Shown piece after piece: positions 32,888 through 61,183 of a DNA stretch of 64,000 nt. Position 1 is the first letter of the stretch. The number at the start of each line of letters is the position of its first letter. The stretch is from Gemella sp. zg-570 (GTDB lineage: Bacteria > Bacillota > Bacilli > Staphylococcales > Gemellaceae): the NCBI RefSeq assembly GCF_018866345.1, contig NZ_CP076443.1, positions 829,501 through 893,500 on the forward strand, written 5' to 3'. Position numbers and translations under genes: made by a program. The notes beneath the pieces were generated by a model. The model did no database searches. It had not been told where the DNA came from and saw only the letters and a list, made by a program, of their open reading frames with translations.

Positions 32888-32913
32888 TATAAAAAGGCAG
32901 CTTAATTGCTACC
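32888..32913 (-). terminator. Terminator overlapping the ftsW stop codon
   Basis: Minus strand arms GGTAGC (32908-32913) and GCTGCC (32896-32901) with a six-base loop that holds the ftsW stop codon TAA, followed by TTTTTAT. The stem is short, with one wobble pair. Confidence 0.7.
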
Positions 32914-34104
32914 TCTTACATATTTTATATGCGAAAGCAAATTCATTATTATTCCTAAGGTAATACTAAGAATAAACATAGAGCTACCTCCAAAGCTAAA
33001 ATAAGGAATAGGAACTCCGGTTAATGGAAGAGAAGCGGAAACTCCTCCCATATTTATTATAGTTTGAATAAATAATAATGCCGCAAAACCAAGAGCAAAA
33101 AGAGATTCAAAAGTTCTTCCCGCTTTTAATCCAGTATATATAATTTTTAATATTATTATAGACAAGAGTAAAACTAAAAATAATACTCCAAAGTAGCCCA
33201 ACTCTTCAGCAGTTATTGCTAATATAAAATCTGTGTGTGCTTCTGGTAAATATCCTAATTTCTGTATAGAATTTCCTAAGCCTCTTCCAAATAGTCCCCC
33301 ATTACCAAATGAGATTAAAGAATTAACAACTTGACTATCTGAACTACTTTTCCCAGAAAAAGGGTCTAAAAATGTTTTTATCCTATTTACTCTGTATGAA
33401 CTACCACTATAAAAAATAACTGTTATTAGTAAGATAAATAATCCTCCAGAAGCACCTAAAATTGAAATTTTTATAAGAGTATAAATATTTCTAAAACTTA
33501 TATTAGCACATAAAACCATGACAACTAAAACAAAAACGGTTATTAACATTGTTCCAGTATCATTTTGTAAAAAAATAAAAACTAATACAGCTAAAGGAAC
33601 TCCAAACATGCTGATTAATTCTTTAAGTGGAGTGGGTCTTAAAAGAGTTCTCTTCCTCGATTCTAATATCAAAGCCATATAAGCAATTATAAAAATTTGA
33701 GCTATTGTAGATGGCTGAAATGTAAAGCCAGCTAAATTTATCCAAGAGTGAGCCCCGTTTACTGATGCTTGAAATAGTGGAATTATTAAAAGTATTACAA
33801 TAAATAAAAATCCAGACGTATAAATATTTTTATTTTTAAAAATTTCATATGGAATTATAGTTGCAAAGACAAGATAAGCACATAAAGAGATAGTTGCCCA
33901 AATTAGCTGTTTTATTAGAAAATAATTTGCAGCAACTGGAACATTACCAGTGAACATTCCGTACTTATTGCCTATCATACTAGCACTATAAACCATTATA
34001 CAGCTAAAAACAAATAAAATTATTAGAGATAAAGTTACAAATATATCCAATTTCTTATAGCGTTTTTCTTTTGCTACACGTTTTAATATTTTTTTTATAT
34101 TCAT
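32902..34104 (-). CDS. ftsW: SEDS-family peptidoglycan polymerase, FtsW-like
   Basis: Septal lipid II polymerase acting with a class B PBP, 400 residues, about ten membrane segments. 'GAHSWINLAGFTFQPS', 'FLQNDTGTMLI', 'FGRGLGNSIQKLGYLPEAHTD' (typical of FtsW, with the conserved Asp) and 'PIPYFSFGGSSM'. Its neighbour ylaN is also next to ftsW in Bacillus, which supports FtsW rather than RodA. No strong ribosome binding site is visible before the ATG; it is close behind ylaN and may be coupled. Confidence 0.9.
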   Translation of the reverse strand: MNIKKILKRVAKEKRYKKLDIFVTLSLIILFVFSCIMVYSASMIGNKYGMFTGNVPVAANYFLIKQLIWATISLCAYLVFATIIPYEIFKNKNIYTSGFLFIVILLIIPLFQASVNGAHSWINLAGFTFQPSTIAQIFIIAYMALILESRKRTLLRPTPLKELISMFGVPLAVLVFIFLQNDTGTMLITVFVLVVMVLCANISFRNIYTLIKISILGASGGLFILLITVIFYSGSSYRVNRIKTFLDPFSGKSSSDSQVVNSLISFGNGGLFGRGLGNSIQKLGYLPEAHTDFILAITAEELGYFGVLFLVLLLSIIILKIIYTGLKAGRTFESLFALGFAALLFIQTIINMGGVSASLPLTGVPIPYFSFGGSSMFILSITLGIIMNLLSHIKYVRGSN

Positions 34105-34110
34105 ATACGT

Positions 34111-34389
34111 TTAATTAATTTTTCTTTTCTCAATATTAAGATATAGATTATTAAGTTTATTCTCTAAATCTTCTAAAACTTCTTTGCTATAACTTTTTGT
34201 AACAAATCCTATCTCAACTGCAAGTTCTAACTCTTTTGAAATTCCATAAATTTGAGTGTCTATTACATCTTGATAAAGAGGACACTCTCTATATTTTTTT
34301 ACAGATAGCTGAGCTTCAATAAGTTCTTCTACCTTTTTTATATCTTGTCTGATTTTATTAATTACTTTTATTTTCAAAATATTGTCCAT
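34111..34389 (-). CDS. ylaN: YlaN family protein (DUF1507)
   Basis: About 92 residues of the YlaN family: 'CPLYQDVIDTQIYGISKELE' is the diagnostic block. YlaN is a small helical protein reported in Bacillus subtilis and Staphylococcus aureus to bind iron and to antagonise Fur or otherwise support iron homeostasis. I use the second ATG (34389), six bases after AGGAGA; the ATG at 34395 abuts the ribosome binding site. Genes yqgQ and ftsW flank it on the same strand. Confidence 0.87.
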   Translation of the reverse strand: MDNILKIKVINKIRQDIKKVEELIEAQLSVKKYRECPLYQDVIDTQIYGISKELELAVEIGFVTKSYSKEVLEDLENKLNNLYLNIEKRKIN

Positions 34390-34407
34390 ATTCATTCTCC
34401 TAACAAT

Positions 34408-34604: not shown

Positions 34605-36044
34605 CTACCCCTTACTATTTATTTCTTCTCTAAAGTTTAAATATTTAATATTCTTATCTAATTTAATAGCTTTCTCTATATATTCTAAACTTTTACTATA
34701 ATTGCTTTCCTTGTATTCTATTAAGGCTAATTGATAATAGATTGGTGCGAATTTATCATCAAAATTAATTCCATCTAAAAACACTTTCTTAGCTTCTTGT
34801 ACTGTTGATGTTGTTATTTTCATCATACCTAATTCATAGTATGATAGTATTGATTTATTATTAGAATTTATTTCTAATTCTAATTTTTCTGTTGAAGTAT
34901 ATCTATTTACCTTAAGTAATCTTTCATTTACTGAATTTAATCTGTAATTATTAATTGAACTTTTCATATCTATACCAAAAATATTAATAAATATTCCTAA
35001 AACCACAACTAATGAAATTAAAAATATAGCAAATTTACTGTTTGTTCCTTTTAATAGTGCTATCTGAACAAATATTCCTAAAATAAAGGCAAACATATAC
35101 ATACCTATTGATATTTTAAAATCTGAAATTAAATTGAGTAAAATTAAATATATAATAGGCATTACAGCTGTATAAATAAATTTAAGATTATCATTTCTTT
35201 TATTAAGTTCAAAAATAAACATAGCACCTAACAAACCAAAAAATGATAAATTTATTGTGTTGGTATATTGTATTTGGTTAAGAATTAAAAATAAATTACA
35301 AAATAAAGAAACAGCCAACAAAATTATTATTGAATTTTTTAAACTTAATTCTTCATTTAATAAAACTGAACACAGTACGATAAATCCAACTATAAAAATT
35401 AAATGAAGTGAATTTTGAAAAATAAATATGTCCGTATATAACCTATAAAATTGACCACTTATAATATTTTGATAATTATACTCAAAATATTTATATATAC
35501 CTCCCTTGCTATAATAAAGCAAAATATAATTTAATAAAAATAATAAAACAAAAAATATTGCTATTAAATTAAAGTAAATATTTGTAGATTTTAGTTTTTT
35601 ATCTTTATACTTGTATCTGTCAACTACCCTATTCTGGTATCTATCGCTATCCACAGATATATCAACAAATTTTATATCACCTTTTTTTATAAAATTATGT
35701 ATGTTTTTCTCCGATACAACTACTCTTTCTACAAGTAATTCTTCTGAAACCTTATATTTTTTATATTCTTGAATATCATTCTCTTCTTTAGAAAAATGTA
35801 ATATCTTTATTTTTAAGCTACTTAATTTAAAATGTTTTTTTAATCTTTTTTCGTTTTTTATAATATTATAAACATTAGCATCTACTGTCGGATTGTCTAG
35901 CTTGTCATTATAAATTAATCTGGTAATCTCATTTTCATGATTTATCAACCAAATATCTTGTTTTTCTTCTCGATAATACAAAACTTCATTATTATATTTT
36001 GTTGTATATAGATAAACTATTTTCCAAAATTTTTTATCATCCAT
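34605..36044 (-). CDS. GluP/ActH-type rhomboid-TPR membrane protein lacking the catalytic dyad
   Basis: 479 residues: cytosolic N-terminal domain (1-150), a rhomboid-type membrane domain of about seven segments (155-355) and a C-terminal extracytoplasmic TPR region (about 395-470, 'KSILSYYELGMMKI', 'APIYYQLALIEYKESN', 'YSKSLEYIEKAIKLD'). The yqgQ neighbour and architecture match Bacillus GluP (YqgP) and Staphylococcus ActH. The protease motif GxSG before 'FGLLGAM' is replaced by 'TINLSFF' (263-269; Asn at the Ser position), and there is no His at all after residue 214, so the Ser-His dyad is absent. It is therefore expected to be a non-proteolytic rhomboid, in effect a membrane scaffold. GAGGA precedes the ATG. 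Confidence 0.8.
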   Translation of the reverse strand: MDDKKFWKIVYLYTTKYNNEVLYYREEKQDIWLINHENEITRLIYNDKLDNPTVDANVYNIIKNEKRLKKHFKLSSLKIKILHFSKEENDIQEYKKYKVSEELLVERVVVSEKNIHNFIKKGDIKFVDISVDSDRYQNRVVDRYKYKDKKLKSTNIYFNLIAIFFVLLFLLNYILLYYSKGGIYKYFEYNYQNIISGQFYRLYTDIFIFQNSLHLIFIVGFIVLCSVLLNEELSLKNSIIILLAVSLFCNLFLILNQIQYTNTINLSFFGLLGAMFIFELNKRNDNLKFIYTAVMPIIYLILLNLISDFKISIGMYMFAFILGIFVQIALLKGTNSKFAIFLISLVVVLGIFINIFGIDMKSSINNYRLNSVNERLLKVNRYTSTEKLELEINSNNKSILSYYELGMMKITTSTVQEAKKVFLDGINFDDKFAPIYYQLALIEYKESNYSKSLEYIEKAIKLDKNIKYLNFREEINSKG

Positions 36045-54989: not shown

Positions 54990-55976
54990 ATGAACATCTT
55001 AAAAGAAATGCAAAAGGAAATAAAAAAAGACAGCTATTCTATATTTTACTTAAAATACCGAGATGAAAAGAAAAACATATTTAAAGTTGCCTTAGATAAA
55101 ATATATTTTTATATAGTAAAATACATACTAAAAAAAGAAAATAAAAAATTAGAATATACAAAAAATTTTAAAAATAATTTTAAAGTGGATACAGTTATTT
55201 CAATTCTTTTATCAGCAATATTAATGTCTTCAATCTTTCTTATTATGAAAATTACAAGTATAAATAAAGAAAATTATGGAGATTATGATCTTATACAAAA
55301 TAATACAAAAAATATTGAAATTGGTGAAAATAACACAAGTGAAAATATGAATAATACTTCATCTATTGATAGGATAGATGAAAGGGCATTAGAAGAAGAA
55401 ATTGAAGCACAAGCCTCATATAAAAACACTTCATATTCATTTAATGTTGCAAGAAACATAAAAACTATTGCTAAAATACACTTATTTAATTCTGCTAATT
55501 GGTCAGATTATAAACAAATAATTCCTGAAAATACAGAATTTGAAGTTAATTATATTGTTTCTCCTGGTGGTTATATGATGTATAAGATAGCTAGTGGAGA
55601 TTATGCAGGATATTTTATAACGGCTAATGAAAAATTAATAATGGTAGATAGGGTAAATGATAATTTAGACTTGAAATTTATAGCTAAACCAATTGCTATA
55701 AAATTACAAGCTAATCAAAATACTTATAAAGAGGCTACTTTGAAAAATGTTAAAGCTATTGCATATAAAAATGTAGTTTTAAATATTAAGGGTTATGGAG
55801 CTGAAAACAACAGACTAATATATTATATAGAAGATGGTAGTTTTTTACCTATCGACTTAACAAAAACTGTCGAAACCCAAAGAAAGAGCGATGAAAATGC
55901 TTCTAATAATAAAAATAAAAGTAAAAATAATTCAGCAACTAAAAAAACTACAACTACTAAGAAAAAAACATCTTAA
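54990..55976 (+). CDS. Membrane-anchored extracytoplasmic protein of unknown function
   Basis: 328 residues: a basic cytosolic N-terminus (1-67), one membrane segment (about 68-88, 'ISILLSAILMSSIFLIM'), an Asn/Glu-rich linker (90-145), then two related SH3-like or DUF5776-like beta modules (about 150-215 'KTIAKIHLFNSANWSDYKQI', 'GDYAGYFITANEKLIM'; and about 220-290) and a Lys/Asn/Thr-rich low-complexity tail. DUF5776-like modules occur in wall-associated proteins; assignment is tentative. Single gene with its own leader and terminator. The N-terminal cytosolic segment suggests interaction inside the cell as well. Confidence 0.72.
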   Translation: MNILKEMQKEIKKDSYSIFYLKYRDEKKNIFKVALDKIYFYIVKYILKKENKKLEYTKNFKNNFKVDTVISILLSAILMSSIFLIMKITSINKENYGDYDLIQNNTKNIEIGENNTSENMNNTSSIDRIDERALEEEIEAQASYKNTSYSFNVARNIKTIAKIHLFNSANWSDYKQIIPENTEFEVNYIVSPGGYMMYKIASGDYAGYFITANEKLIMVDRVNDNLDLKFIAKPIAIKLQANQNTYKEATLKNVKAIAYKNVVLNIKGYGAENNRLIYYIEDGSFLPIDLTKTVETQRKSDENASNNKNKSKNNSATKKTTTTKKKTS

Positions 55977-57105: not shown

Positions 57106-58533
57106 TTATTTATAAATTATCCAAATTTGTGTTGTTGCTTTTTCTATTTCTTCTTTAGCAAACCCTCTATAAGTATTTAATTTAATATCATCATCTGCTG
57201 GATCGTTTAAGTAATATTTACCATCTTCTAAGCCTCTGATAACTTTAAAACTTGGTCTATCCAATTTAAAGCTACCTTTTTTTGTTTGAATTAAGACAGG
57301 TTTATTATCTTTAAGGGCCTCATCTATTTTATTAAATTGATTTTTTCTAACATCATTTACTTTTAAATTATACTTATCAGCGAAATTTTTTACAATTTTC
57401 TCTGAAGTTCCTTGGCCGCTAAGATAATATTTATCGCCAGCCCAATCAACAATTTCTTTTATACTCAAACTGCTATAAGGATTTAGGTAATGCTCTATCA
57501 TGGCTAAAGCTATTATAGCATCTCCATTTTCTGATATTTTTTTATTATTATCTGTTCCATAACTTATATCTTTAACATCATCATTTTTAGAGTAATAAAA
57601 AGGTATATTCATACCACGATGAGGTGCATTTATAAGTTCTTCCCTTACTTTTTCATTATAATTGTCTACACTTATTAAATAGTATAAATATTCTTCTAGC
57701 CCTCTCGTTATAGCCATGACATAATCATTTTTATAAATTTCATTATTTAAAATATCTAAATCAATTTTGTTTTTTAAATTCCCAGCTGAAATAAGAACTT
57801 CAGGAACTTCATCTTTTAACTGATTTACTAAGATGTCATTTTTTTCTGACGTATTAACATTTAAAACATAATTACTATTCAAATTTTTTTCAATATATTT
57901 ACTTAAAAGTCTTGATATTTGTTTTCCGTAATTTAGAGAAACACCACTATTTGCTTGATCATTATTATAAATATTTATATTCAAAACCAAGCTAATATTA
58001 TTGTCATTAATTAGTTTAAGCTTGTTTTCTTCTTTTGCCTCATTATTATCCATTCTCGAAATATGGACTTTTATTCCCAATTTTTCCAACTCTTCCTTTA
58101 ATTTATTAGCTGTTTCTAAATTATAGTCTTTTTCTGTATCTACTACTAAAGGATTTAATAGTACGGAATAATTACTTAATTTTTCTTTCATCTTTTCTTC
58201 TGGACTTTTTATTTGTGAACCAGACACATTCCAACCAGCAACCCAACCTATTAGATTATCTGCTGTTCTTACTTCTATCCATTCATTACTTTCAGAATAT
58301 TTTTCTAAAATTGTTCCTGCTAATAATAATTTTATTTCTGGATAAATATCATCTGGTCCTGTTCTAAGTTCAGTTTCTTTAGATAAGGCTATTTGATTTT
58401 TGGTGATTTTTCTTTTATCTATAATATTTTTATTGTATTTATAATATAAAATTGCAGAACCTAATAGTAATACTCCCATAGAAAAAATTAAAATGGTAAG
58501 TAGACTAATTTTCTTTTTTCTTTTTATTCTCAT
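57106..58533 (-). CDS. LytH-like SH3b/amidase protein with degenerate amidase and C39-like domains
   Basis: 475 residues. Basic N-terminus and membrane anchor (11-30), SH3b domain (50-102, 'ELRTGPDDIYPEI', 'WIEVRTADNLIGWVAGW'), a domain aligning with Amidase_3 of LytH (121-288) and a C39-type peptidase-like domain (about 305-475). The amidase part lost the DPGHGG His (reads 'LLNPLVV', 124-131), the SIH His (now Ile 188) and the catalytic Glu (Ser 249); one zinc Glu survives (E134). In the C39 part Cys is replaced by Asp 338 ('SENGDAIIALAM') and the catalytic His by Ser 428, while the NDP Asp 444 remains. The gene follows dtd and rel, the LytH position of staphylococci. Probably a non-catalytic wall-binding protein. 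It ends three bases from dtd. Confidence 0.82.
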   Translation of the reverse strand: MRIKRKKKISLLTILIFSMGVLLLGSAILYYKYNKNIIDKRKITKNQIALSKETELRTGPDDIYPEIKLLLAGTILEKYSESNEWIEVRTADNLIGWVAGWNVSGSQIKSPEEKMKEKLSNYSVLLNPLVVDTEKDYNLETANKLKEELEKLGIKVHISRMDNNEAKEENKLKLINDNNISLVLNINIYNNDQANSGVSLNYGKQISRLLSKYIEKNLNSNYVLNVNTSEKNDILVNQLKDEVPEVLISAGNLKNKIDLDILNNEIYKNDYVMAITRGLEEYLYYLISVDNYNEKVREELINAPHRGMNIPFYYSKNDDVKDISYGTDNNKKISENGDAIIALAMIEHYLNPYSSLSIKEIVDWAGDKYYLSGQGTSEKIVKNFADKYNLKVNDVRKNQFNKIDEALKDNKPVLIQTKKGSFKLDRPSFKVIRGLEDGKYYLNDPADDDIKLNTYRGFAKEEIEKATTQIWIIYK

Positions 58534-58535
58534 AC

Positions 58536-58991
58536 TTATACCTTATTATTTGATAATTTTTCAAATATTATTGTTACTGGACCGTCATTTACTATCTTGA
58601 CTTCCATGTGTGTCTGAAAAATACCAGTTTGTACTTCCAATTCTTCCTTGCGTAGATATTCATTAAATTTTAAATATAATTCATTTGCTTTTTCAGACCA
58701 TGCCGCATCAGTAAAACTTGGTCTTTTGCCCTTTTTAGTGTCTGCATATAGGGTAAACTGAGAAATAGATAGTATTTCTCCCTTCACTTCTTTTATTCCT
58801 AAATTTATTTTTCCATTTTCATCTTCAAAAAGTCTGGCCTCTGCTATTTTTTTTGCTAAATACTTTGCATCTTCTTCGGTAGAATTTTTATGTACTCCTA
58901 CTAATAAACAGTAACCCTTATTTATAAAGCCTACAATTTTTTCATCAACTATTACTGAAGATTTTTTTACTTTTTGTAATACTACTTTCAT
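58536..58991 (-). CDS. dtd: D-aminoacyl-tRNA deacylase
   Basis: Hydrolyses D-amino acids wrongly attached to tRNAs. 151 residues. Active-site motifs 'ILSISQFTLYADTKKGKRPSF' (SQ-x-TL) and 'VNDGPVTIIFE' (GPVT) are intact. Nine bases from rel upstream; rel-dtd is a conserved Bacillota pair. Confidence 0.96.
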   Translation of the reverse strand: MKVVLQKVKKSSVIVDEKIVGFINKGYCLLVGVHKNSTEEDAKYLAKKIAEARLFEDENGKINLGIKEVKGEILSISQFTLYADTKKGKRPSFTDAAWSEKANELYLKFNEYLRKEELEVQTGIFQTHMEVKIVNDGPVTIIFEKLSNNKV

Positions 58992-58999
58992 AACTACCC

Positions 59000-61183
59000 C
59001 TATTTAACAATTCTCTCTACGCTATATATATCAGATATTTGACGTAATTTTTTCATTATAAAATTACATTCTTCTATATTTTTTATCAGAATACTAAGGT
59101 CAATTACGCAAGTCTTATCTAGCTTAGATTCTGAATTAAGTTTTGTTATTGCAATTTTACTTTCATTAAGTTTTAATAAAACATTACTAAGTAATAAATC
59201 TCTATCAAAACCATGTAGATGTAAGCTAACGGCATAATCTCTTTTATGTGTGCTTTGCACCCATTCTACATCGAGTATTCTATTTTTATCTTCATTGGCT
59301 ATATTAGGACATTCTTCTCTATGAACAGTTACACCACGACCTTTTGTTATAAATCCAACAATATTATCCCCTGGTATAGGTTTACAGCATTTAGACAATC
59401 TAACTAGTATATTGTCAACTCCTTTTACATAAACACCAGTATCCGTTATTATTTTTTTATTAGTATCCTCGCTTGCATTTATGAGTTTATCCAATTTTTC
59501 TTGGGCTAATTTTTCTTTTCTTAATCTTTCAGTTAGCCTCATGAAAACTTGATTAGCTGTTAATGCTCCGTAACCTATTGTGCGATAAAGGTCTTCTAGG
59601 CTAGCAAATCTATATTTATTTAAGACTAACTCAATAGCTTCTTGAGTCATTATTTCATCAATATCAAAGCCTTGTGCTTTAATTTCATCTTTTAGTAAAA
59701 TTTCACCCTTTGCAAGATTTTCTTCTCTGGCGGCCTTTTTAAAAAAGGATTTTATTTTTGATTTTGTTTGTGAAGAAGTGGCTAGATTTAACCAATCTCT
59801 ACTGGGACCAGATGAATTTTTGCTAGTTCTAACATCACAGATTTCTCCAGTTGATAAAACATAATCAAAAGGTACAATTTTATCATTTATTGTAGCCCCC
59901 ACCATCTTATTACCTACTTCGGTATGAATTGCATAAGCAAAGTCTACTACACAAGAACCCTTTGGTAATTCTATGATATCACTATTTGGTGTGAATACAT
60001 ATATCTTATCACTCAATAAATCCACTTTTAATGAATCCATAAAACTTTCTGCAGTAGCTTCTGTTTCATCCCCTTCTGCAATTTTTTGGAACCAATTTAA
60101 TTTTTGATAAAAATCATCTTGTTTATTGGTTTTTCTACCCTCTTTATAGGCCCAGTGGGCGGCAATGCCCTTTTCTGCTATCTCGTGCATTTCATAAGTT
60201 CTAATTTGAACTTCGAGAGGTTGTCCAGCAGGAGAAATTAAGGTCGTATGCAGTGATTGATACATATTAGGTTTTGGCATTGCAATATAATCTTTCATCC
60301 TGCCAGGAATTGGGAGCCACATATTATTTACAAGTCCCAAAGTTGCATAGCAATCTGCAACACTATTTACTAAAACCCTCACTGCTAACAAGTCATATAT
60401 TTCTTCAAAACTTTTATTATTTTTTTGCATCTTTTTATAAATACTATAAATATGCTTGGGCCTGCCATTTACTTCAGCAACAATATTATTTTCTACTAAA
60501 ATTCTCATTATATCTTCAGAGGCTTGCTTTATACTCTCAACACGAAAACTGCGTTTTTGTTTCATCATTCCCACTATTGAAAAGTATTGTTCAGGATGTA
60601 AATATCTTAATGAGGTATCTTCTAACTCCCATTTTATAGAACTAATACCCAGCCTGTGTGCCAAAGGGGCATAGATTTCCAAAGTTTCACTAGAAATTTC
60701 TTTTTGTTTTTCTTCACGCATATGCTTTAAAGTTCTCATGTTGTGAAGCCTGTCGGCAAGTTTCACGAATATAACCCTTATGTCGCTAGCTATTGCCATA
60801 AATAATTTTCTATGATTTTCTGCTTGGGATTGTTTTTTGGAGGTGAATTTCACCTTGTCTAATTTAGTAACTCCGTCAACTATTATAGAAATATCTTCAG
60901 TAAATAATTCTTTAATATCTTCTAAAGTATACTCTGTATCTTCTACAACGTCGTGTAAAAATCCAGCACAAACAGTGGCATAATCAAGTTTTAATTCTGC
61001 CAATATTCCTGCAACTTGAATGGGATGCATTATATAATCTTCGCCAGATTTCCTCTTTTGCCCTTCGTGAGCTTTTTTAGCCAGCAAAAAAGACTTGTCA
61101 ATCATTTCTAAATATTTTTCTGGAATATATTCTCTACAAATTTTAAAAACATCTTCATAAGTATAGGGATATTCTAAATTCAT
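59000..61183 (-). CDS. rel: Bifunctional (p)ppGpp synthetase/hydrolase Rel
   Basis: 727 residues, long RelA/SpoT homologue. HD hydrolase (about 20-190; 'EDYIMHPIQVAGILAEL', 'AGFLHDVVEDTEYT'), synthetase (about 200-350; 'NGRPKHIYSIYKKM', 'IYDLLAVRVLV', 'MPKPNMYQSLHTT'), TGS (about 390-450), helical, zinc-finger-like ('LVRLSKCCKPIPGD') and ACT domains. Both active sites look complete, so it can make and destroy (p)ppGpp. AAGGAG precedes the ATG. First gene of rel-dtd-lytH-like. Confidence 0.96.
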   Translation of the reverse strand: MNLEYPYTYEDVFKICREYIPEKYLEMIDKSFLLAKKAHEGQKRKSGEDYIMHPIQVAGILAELKLDYATVCAGFLHDVVEDTEYTLEDIKELFTEDISIIVDGVTKLDKVKFTSKKQSQAENHRKLFMAIASDIRVIFVKLADRLHNMRTLKHMREEKQKEISSETLEIYAPLAHRLGISSIKWELEDTSLRYLHPEQYFSIVGMMKQKRSFRVESIKQASEDIMRILVENNIVAEVNGRPKHIYSIYKKMQKNNKSFEEIYDLLAVRVLVNSVADCYATLGLVNNMWLPIPGRMKDYIAMPKPNMYQSLHTTLISPAGQPLEVQIRTYEMHEIAEKGIAAHWAYKEGRKTNKQDDFYQKLNWFQKIAEGDETEATAESFMDSLKVDLLSDKIYVFTPNSDIIELPKGSCVVDFAYAIHTEVGNKMVGATINDKIVPFDYVLSTGEICDVRTSKNSSGPSRDWLNLATSSQTKSKIKSFFKKAAREENLAKGEILLKDEIKAQGFDIDEIMTQEAIELVLNKYRFASLEDLYRTIGYGALTANQVFMRLTERLRKEKLAQEKLDKLINASEDTNKKIITDTGVYVKGVDNILVRLSKCCKPIPGDNIVGFITKGRGVTVHREECPNIANEDKNRILDVEWVQSTHKRDYAVSLHLHGFDRDLLLSNVLLKLNESKIAITKLNSESKLDKTCVIDLSILIKNIEECNFIMKKLRQISDIYSVERIVK

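Follow-up and report, generated by a model that had tools for sequence, protein, structure and literature searches.

Comparison of aligned residues gives good support to the view that, in Gemella, the LytH-like protein and its partner ActH have each lost their known active sites. Staphylococcal LytH depends on ActH for its amidase activity, and the two proteins are linked to division. The window, the 64,000-nucleotide stretch of the Gemella sp. zg-570 genome analysed here, encodes both, with the actH-like gene about 21 kb from the lytH-like gene (Table 1). The first-pass annotation of the lytH-like gene recognised neither the ActH partner nor the C39-like domain at the end of the LytH-like protein.

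Table 1. Position of the two genes, their domains and their neighbours in the window
Feature	Position	Strand	Evidence
lytH-like gene, 475 aa: TM anchor, SH3b, pseudo-amidase, long helix, pseudo-C39	57106..58533	(-)	ORF and 13 orthologues
N-terminal membrane anchor, residues 11-39	58417..58503	(-)	AF2 helix 11-39; hydrophobic, preceded by Lys/Arg-rich stretch
SH3b domain, residues 55-104	58222..58371	(-)	Pfam SH3_3 E 6.2e-9; 13/13 members
Amidase_3 fold, residues 118-283, zinc site lost (V130, N187/I188, S249)	57685..58182	(-)	Pfam E 3e-15; PDB 7tj4 TM 0.78; residue table
Long helix linking amidase to C39-like domain, residues 265-302	57628..57741	(-)	AF2; low confidence from about residue 296
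Peptidase_C39-like domain, residues 306-475, triad lost	57109..57618	(-)	Pfam C39_2 E 1.1e-7, 13/13 members; PDB 3erv match
Asp338 for C39 catalytic Cys (NGDAI vs NGCAI/GGCGP)	57520..57522	(-)	13/13
Ser428 for C39 catalytic His (Thr/Ser in all orthologues)	57250..57252	(-)	residue alignment
Asp444, third C39 triad residue, kept (NDP)	57202..57204	(-)	residue alignment
dtd and rel, upstream neighbours marking the lytH position	58536..61183	(-)	same order in L094-L101
actH/rbd/yqgP-like gene, 479 aa: cytosolic N-domain, degenerate rhomboid, TPR	34605..36044	(-)	Pfam Rhomboid (weak) and TPR
Pseudo-rhomboid domain, residues 155-345: GASG gone, catalytic His replaced by Tyr316	35010..35582	(-)	residue table, 14/14 Gemella
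TPR domain, residues 375-475	34620..34922	(-)	aligns with 7tj4 ActH chain, E 2.7e-4; TPR_8 in 14/14
ylaN (DUF1507) and ftsW/rodA, directly downstream of actH	32902..34395	(-)	Pfam; flank tblastn

A LytH orthologue without its zinc site

Orthology of the window gene to lytH is supported by its position, its SH3b-amidase order and its structure. The reading frame lies directly after dtd (58536-58991) and rel (59000-61183), which upholds the rel-dtd-lytH position read earlier from the sequence; in the outgroup locus L121, lytH is flanked upstream by the end of rel and downstream by hisS. The kinship with LytH claimed for the SH3b and Amidase_3 parts is likewise sound, as both SH3_3 and Amidase_3 are above the Pfam cut-offs, the domain order agrees and the predicted fold matches LytH of 7tj4. 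The Amidase_3 match covers residues 133-280 and begins only at profile position 21, past the segment of the first zinc His. Full-length orthologues, 43-52% identical, are found in 13 of the 15 genomes of the window's genome family, all of them Gemella (including G. cuniculi, G. sanguinis, G. haemolysans and G. bergeri) and covering both GTDB genera of the family. One of the two remaining genomes is 66% complete; the other (G003) also lacks dtd, and an assembly gap is more probable there than a true loss of lytH. The literature library searched contained nothing on Gemella LytH. A membrane protein of 328 aa is also encoded in the window, at 54990-55976(+); part of it is probably extracellular, its tail is Lys-rich and no Pfam or NCBIfam family matches it significantly. 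In locus L094 a different ORF, of 651 aa, occupies the comparable place.

The AlphaFold2 model of the LytH-like protein, built from nine sequences, has a mean pLDDT of 78.9 and a pTM of 0.53, with low confidence at residues 447-454. Foldseek against the PDB ranked a YrvJ-YacD model highest by E-value, although it superposes poorly (rmsd 10.3), followed by LytH of 7tj4 (TM 0.78 to target) and, further down, by the C39-like structure 3erv (E 1.6e-3, TM 0.58). The 7tj4 entry is a complex of the extracellular domains of LytH and ActH, and the amidase and TPR profiles of the Gemella proteins each match its chains.

In an alignment with 17 staphylococcal LytH proteins, the first zinc His, H128 (DPGHGG), corresponds to V130, and the Gly-rich loop is missing; H193 (SIHND) corresponds to N187, or to I188 by another gap placement, and never to His; and the catalytic E255 (LLELGY) corresponds to S249. 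The first-pass annotation was therefore right that three of the four expected amidase residues are gone, and right that the SIH His is among them, but its assignment of that position to Ile 188 depends on where the gap is put. Its statement that only E134 survives is true of this species, in which E134 aligns by phmmer with the zinc Glu of LytH 7tj4_B (EKDY/EKDY), but the column holds Pro, Ser or Ala, or has no acid aligned, in sister species, so E134 is not a conserved ligand. Comparison of orthologues strengthens the claim of loss, for the same changes occur in 13/13 Gemella proteins, none of which keeps His1, His3 or Glu4, whereas all four residues are kept in 22/22 outgroup LytH proteins (the 17 Staphylococcaceae of the alignment and five from three families read by eye). 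Losses this uniform, set against intact residues in every outgroup, are not due to chance.

Across the Gemella LytH-like proteins or ActH proteins, no column of conserved His or Cys is found, which argues against both a displaced zinc site and a shifted Cys protease. No alternative zinc arrangement is apparent, and such a site in the LytH-like protein was ruled out on this ground. The title of Page et al. 2022, cited in PMC10817146, refers to stabilisation of a metal cofactor by a partner protein; for a Gemella LytH lacking the metal site, such a role of ActH would be empty.

Loss of the C39 and rhomboid active sites

The Peptidase_C39_2 (PF13529) match in the C-terminal part of the LytH-like protein spans residues 340-446. 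Asp444 is the sole triad residue kept in the Gemella orthologues, and the oxyanion Gln is replaced by Ser, Thr or Met at position 315. Positions Asp338, Asp444 and Asp447 do not vary, and Asp448/449 hardly do. Outside Gemella, the closest relatives found (L119/L127 and L126) come from another Bacilli family and are free-standing; they carry NGCAI, in place of GGCGP and in frame with the Gemella NGDAI, and GHIMVL, with the Cys and His intact. Among the matches listed, which were the best candidates per genome from 399 Bacilli genomes, no SH3b-amidase-C39 fusion was seen outside Gemella. The genome has, besides, an intact C39-family protein at L005 1489-2322(-) (G000:C1, about 1038330), a separate secreted chain of 277 aa that keeps GGCGP, GHI and NDP and has orthologues in several Gemella genomes (L006, L016-L020). 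It is less likely that the fused domain was copied from this intact protein of the same genome, which matches it at E 1.8e-8 as compared with 1.4e-21 and 2.3e-16 for the free-standing relatives.

An ActH homologue, aligning over its full length to Staphylococcus ActH, is present in 14 of the 15 family genomes. The GASG Ser motif, the TM6 His and the TM2 Asn are lost in 14/14 Gemella proteins, the TM6 position being Tyr in 13 and Ser in one, and the TM2 His is lost in 13 of the 14, with His (H214) present there in the window species. All four of these rhomboid features are kept in 16/16 outgroup ActH proteins. Ser occupies the aligned catalytic column in three Gemella proteins, without the motif or the His. 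A GYSG string in some members was considered as a shifted motif and rejected, as it lies nine residues upstream, is absent in the window's genus and is accompanied by Tyr or Ser at the His position. Only one of the 14 proteins matches Pfam Rhomboid at E 0.01, so the partner is easily overlooked. A further small rhomboid (about 195 aa), strongly matched by Pfam, is encoded in two family genomes, at G001:C19 95011-98311 and G003:C33 129958; in G001 an Amidase_3 protein of 385 aa lies about 2.4 kb away.

The Gemella actH gene lies directly before ylaN-ftsW, with ftsW beside it in 14/14 genomes and ylaN undetected beside two of the 14. Neither ylaN nor ftsW was seen when the flanks of staphylococcal actH were searched by tblastn. 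The linkage of actH to ftsW may be a chance rearrangement.

Selection on both genes and timing of the losses

Nei-Gojobori dN/dS between pairs of Gemella orthologues, taken over the whole gene, is 0.05-0.12 for lytH-like genes in five closer pairs and 0.07-0.10 for actH in four pairs. The most diverged pair (L002/L003), in which synonymous divergence is high, gives 0.31 overall and 0.79 in the amidase part, and in five of six pairs the C39 part has a lower dN/dS than the amidase part. Mean pairwise identity in the LytH-like proteins is 0.61 for SH3b, 0.48 for the amidase and 0.66 for C39, the last with 51 invariant columns; in ActH it is 0.69 for the N-domain, 0.47 for the rhomboid and 0.62 for the TPR. 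The binding-type modules are thus better conserved than the amidase and rhomboid: constraint has eased on the former catalytic cores and is maintained elsewhere. Reading frames are full-length in 13 (lytH-like) and 14 (actH) Gemella genomes, and these intact frames, together with the low dN/dS, rule out a pseudogene. At the level of sequence, purifying selection is shown for both genes and is strongest on the SH3b, C39-like, TPR and cytosolic ActH modules. The simplest placement of all three losses would be at the stem of the Gemella family, since they occur in every Gemella genome found and are absent from the other families of the order that were examined (three for LytH, two for ActH), with timing set by parsimony on the residue tables.

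A proposed non-cutting complex and its alternatives

In S. aureus, LytH strips stem peptides from uncrosslinked peptidoglycan and requires ActH (PMC13104630, PMC8496864). The Gemella pair resembles this LytH-ActH (Rbd) system in the position after rel and dtd, the TM-SH3b-Amidase_3 order, the amidase fold (TM 0.78) and a partner with cytosolic domain, rhomboid and TPR; the Staphylococcus pair differs in having both catalytic sites intact, no C39 domain and an actH that is not beside ylaN-ftsW. Mycobacterial CwlM, as described in the available text of PMC4946905, is also an Amidase_3 homologue with degenerate zinc ligands and an essential role that is regulatory, but it is cytoplasmic, phosphorylated by PknB, an activator of MurA and retains acidic ligands, and that text describes no ActH, SH3b or C39 part. 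The Gemella protein, in contrast to such a cytoplasmic location, has a predicted N-terminal membrane anchor followed by SH3b. EnvC, as cited in the same text, is similarly a hydrolase relative without catalytic residues that regulates septation, though it belongs to another fold family and activates other amidases. For the C39 part, the CLD of HlyB-type ABC exporters (PMC8277102) offers a C39 fold with its catalytic Cys replaced and a non-peptidase role; it is the N-terminal domain of a transporter with Cys changed to Tyr, whereas the Gemella domain is extracellular, fused to an amidase and has Cys changed to Asp. B. subtilis YqgP (PMC7231995) shares the ActH architecture and is a precedent for a non-proteolytic adaptor role, but keeps the catalytic residues that Gemella ActH has lost.

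The explanation favoured here, to which about an even chance is given, is that Gemella LytH has turned into a pseudoenzyme and forms, with the pseudo-rhomboid ActH, a non-cutting membrane complex that tunes septal wall synthesis. The ActH TPR would still hold on to the amidase fold in the manner of S. aureus 7tj4, with that fold now acting as a docking body, and SH3b and the C39-like domain, both facing outward, may bind a wall protein or the peptides of nascent, uncrosslinked peptidoglycan. Such a complex would then signal to or position the septal synthesis machinery, a connection drawn from ActH being coded beside FtsW, and would do so with no trimming of stem peptides. Complex formation, ligand and output are what we infer from the three active-site losses, the low dN/dS, the 7tj4 fold match and the actH-ylaN-ftsW linkage; counting against them is the lower conservation of the amidase domain relative to the other parts (dN/dS 0.79 in L002/L003, at high synonymous divergence). 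A tentative extension is that three dead folds (amidase, C39 peptidase and rhomboid) could have been reused as binders, giving a non-cutting sensor of nascent wall on the FtsW divisome. The earlier suggestion of a wall-binding or regulatory pseudoenzyme remains the best reading of a protein with its zinc site lost, but was incomplete, as the dead C39-like fusion, the genus-wide loss and the dead ActH were outside it.

It is rather unlikely that the C39-like domain is instead the working part and LytH/ActH a mere membrane carrier, with Asp338, Ser/Thr428, Asp444 and the acidic NDPxDDD loop making up a new site for calcium or cationic peptide binding or for new hydrolytic chemistry. No other large domain of the protein is as constrained as C39, its pocket replacement is uniform rather than drifting, and Asp338/444/447 are invariant and Asp448/449 almost invariant; residue 428, however, is Ser in some orthologues and Thr in others, S/T/M315 stands where the oxyanion Gln would be and the model is of low confidence at 447-454. 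To our knowledge, no enzyme is known to work with these residues, which also counts against such a site. A dissolved complex, in which pseudo-ActH is an FtsH-type substrate adaptor and the LytH-like protein a separate wall-binding protein, seems improbable: no part of Gemella ActH is better conserved than the cytosolic N-domain, and B. subtilis YqgP has, besides its protease role, a catalysis-independent pseudoprotease adaptor role for FtsH (PMC7231995), but the TPR, the ActH domain in the 7tj4 complex, is also well conserved, and both proteins were kept though their sites were lost in the same lineage.

That the protein is still an amidase, with a different metal site or with catalysis independent of the standard ligands, is very improbable despite the retained Amidase_3 fold and one report of amidase activity for CwlM, with its degenerate zinc ligands, in the available text of PMC4946905, given the lack of conserved His/Cys, the missing first zinc loop and the unconserved E134. 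Decay of the gene after loss of the LytH pathway would fit the amidase and rhomboid cores being the least conserved folded parts, but is scarcely credible beside full-length frames in 13 and 14 genomes, dN/dS of 0.05-0.12 in closer pairs and the 51 invariant C39 columns.

A Pfam-derived label of N-acetylmuramoyl-L-alanine amidase would be wrong for the Gemella protein. That the pair was kept after every known active site was lost suggests a role independent of amidase or protease activity, and Gemella would thus represent a natural separation of LytH-ActH cutting from a non-cutting role.
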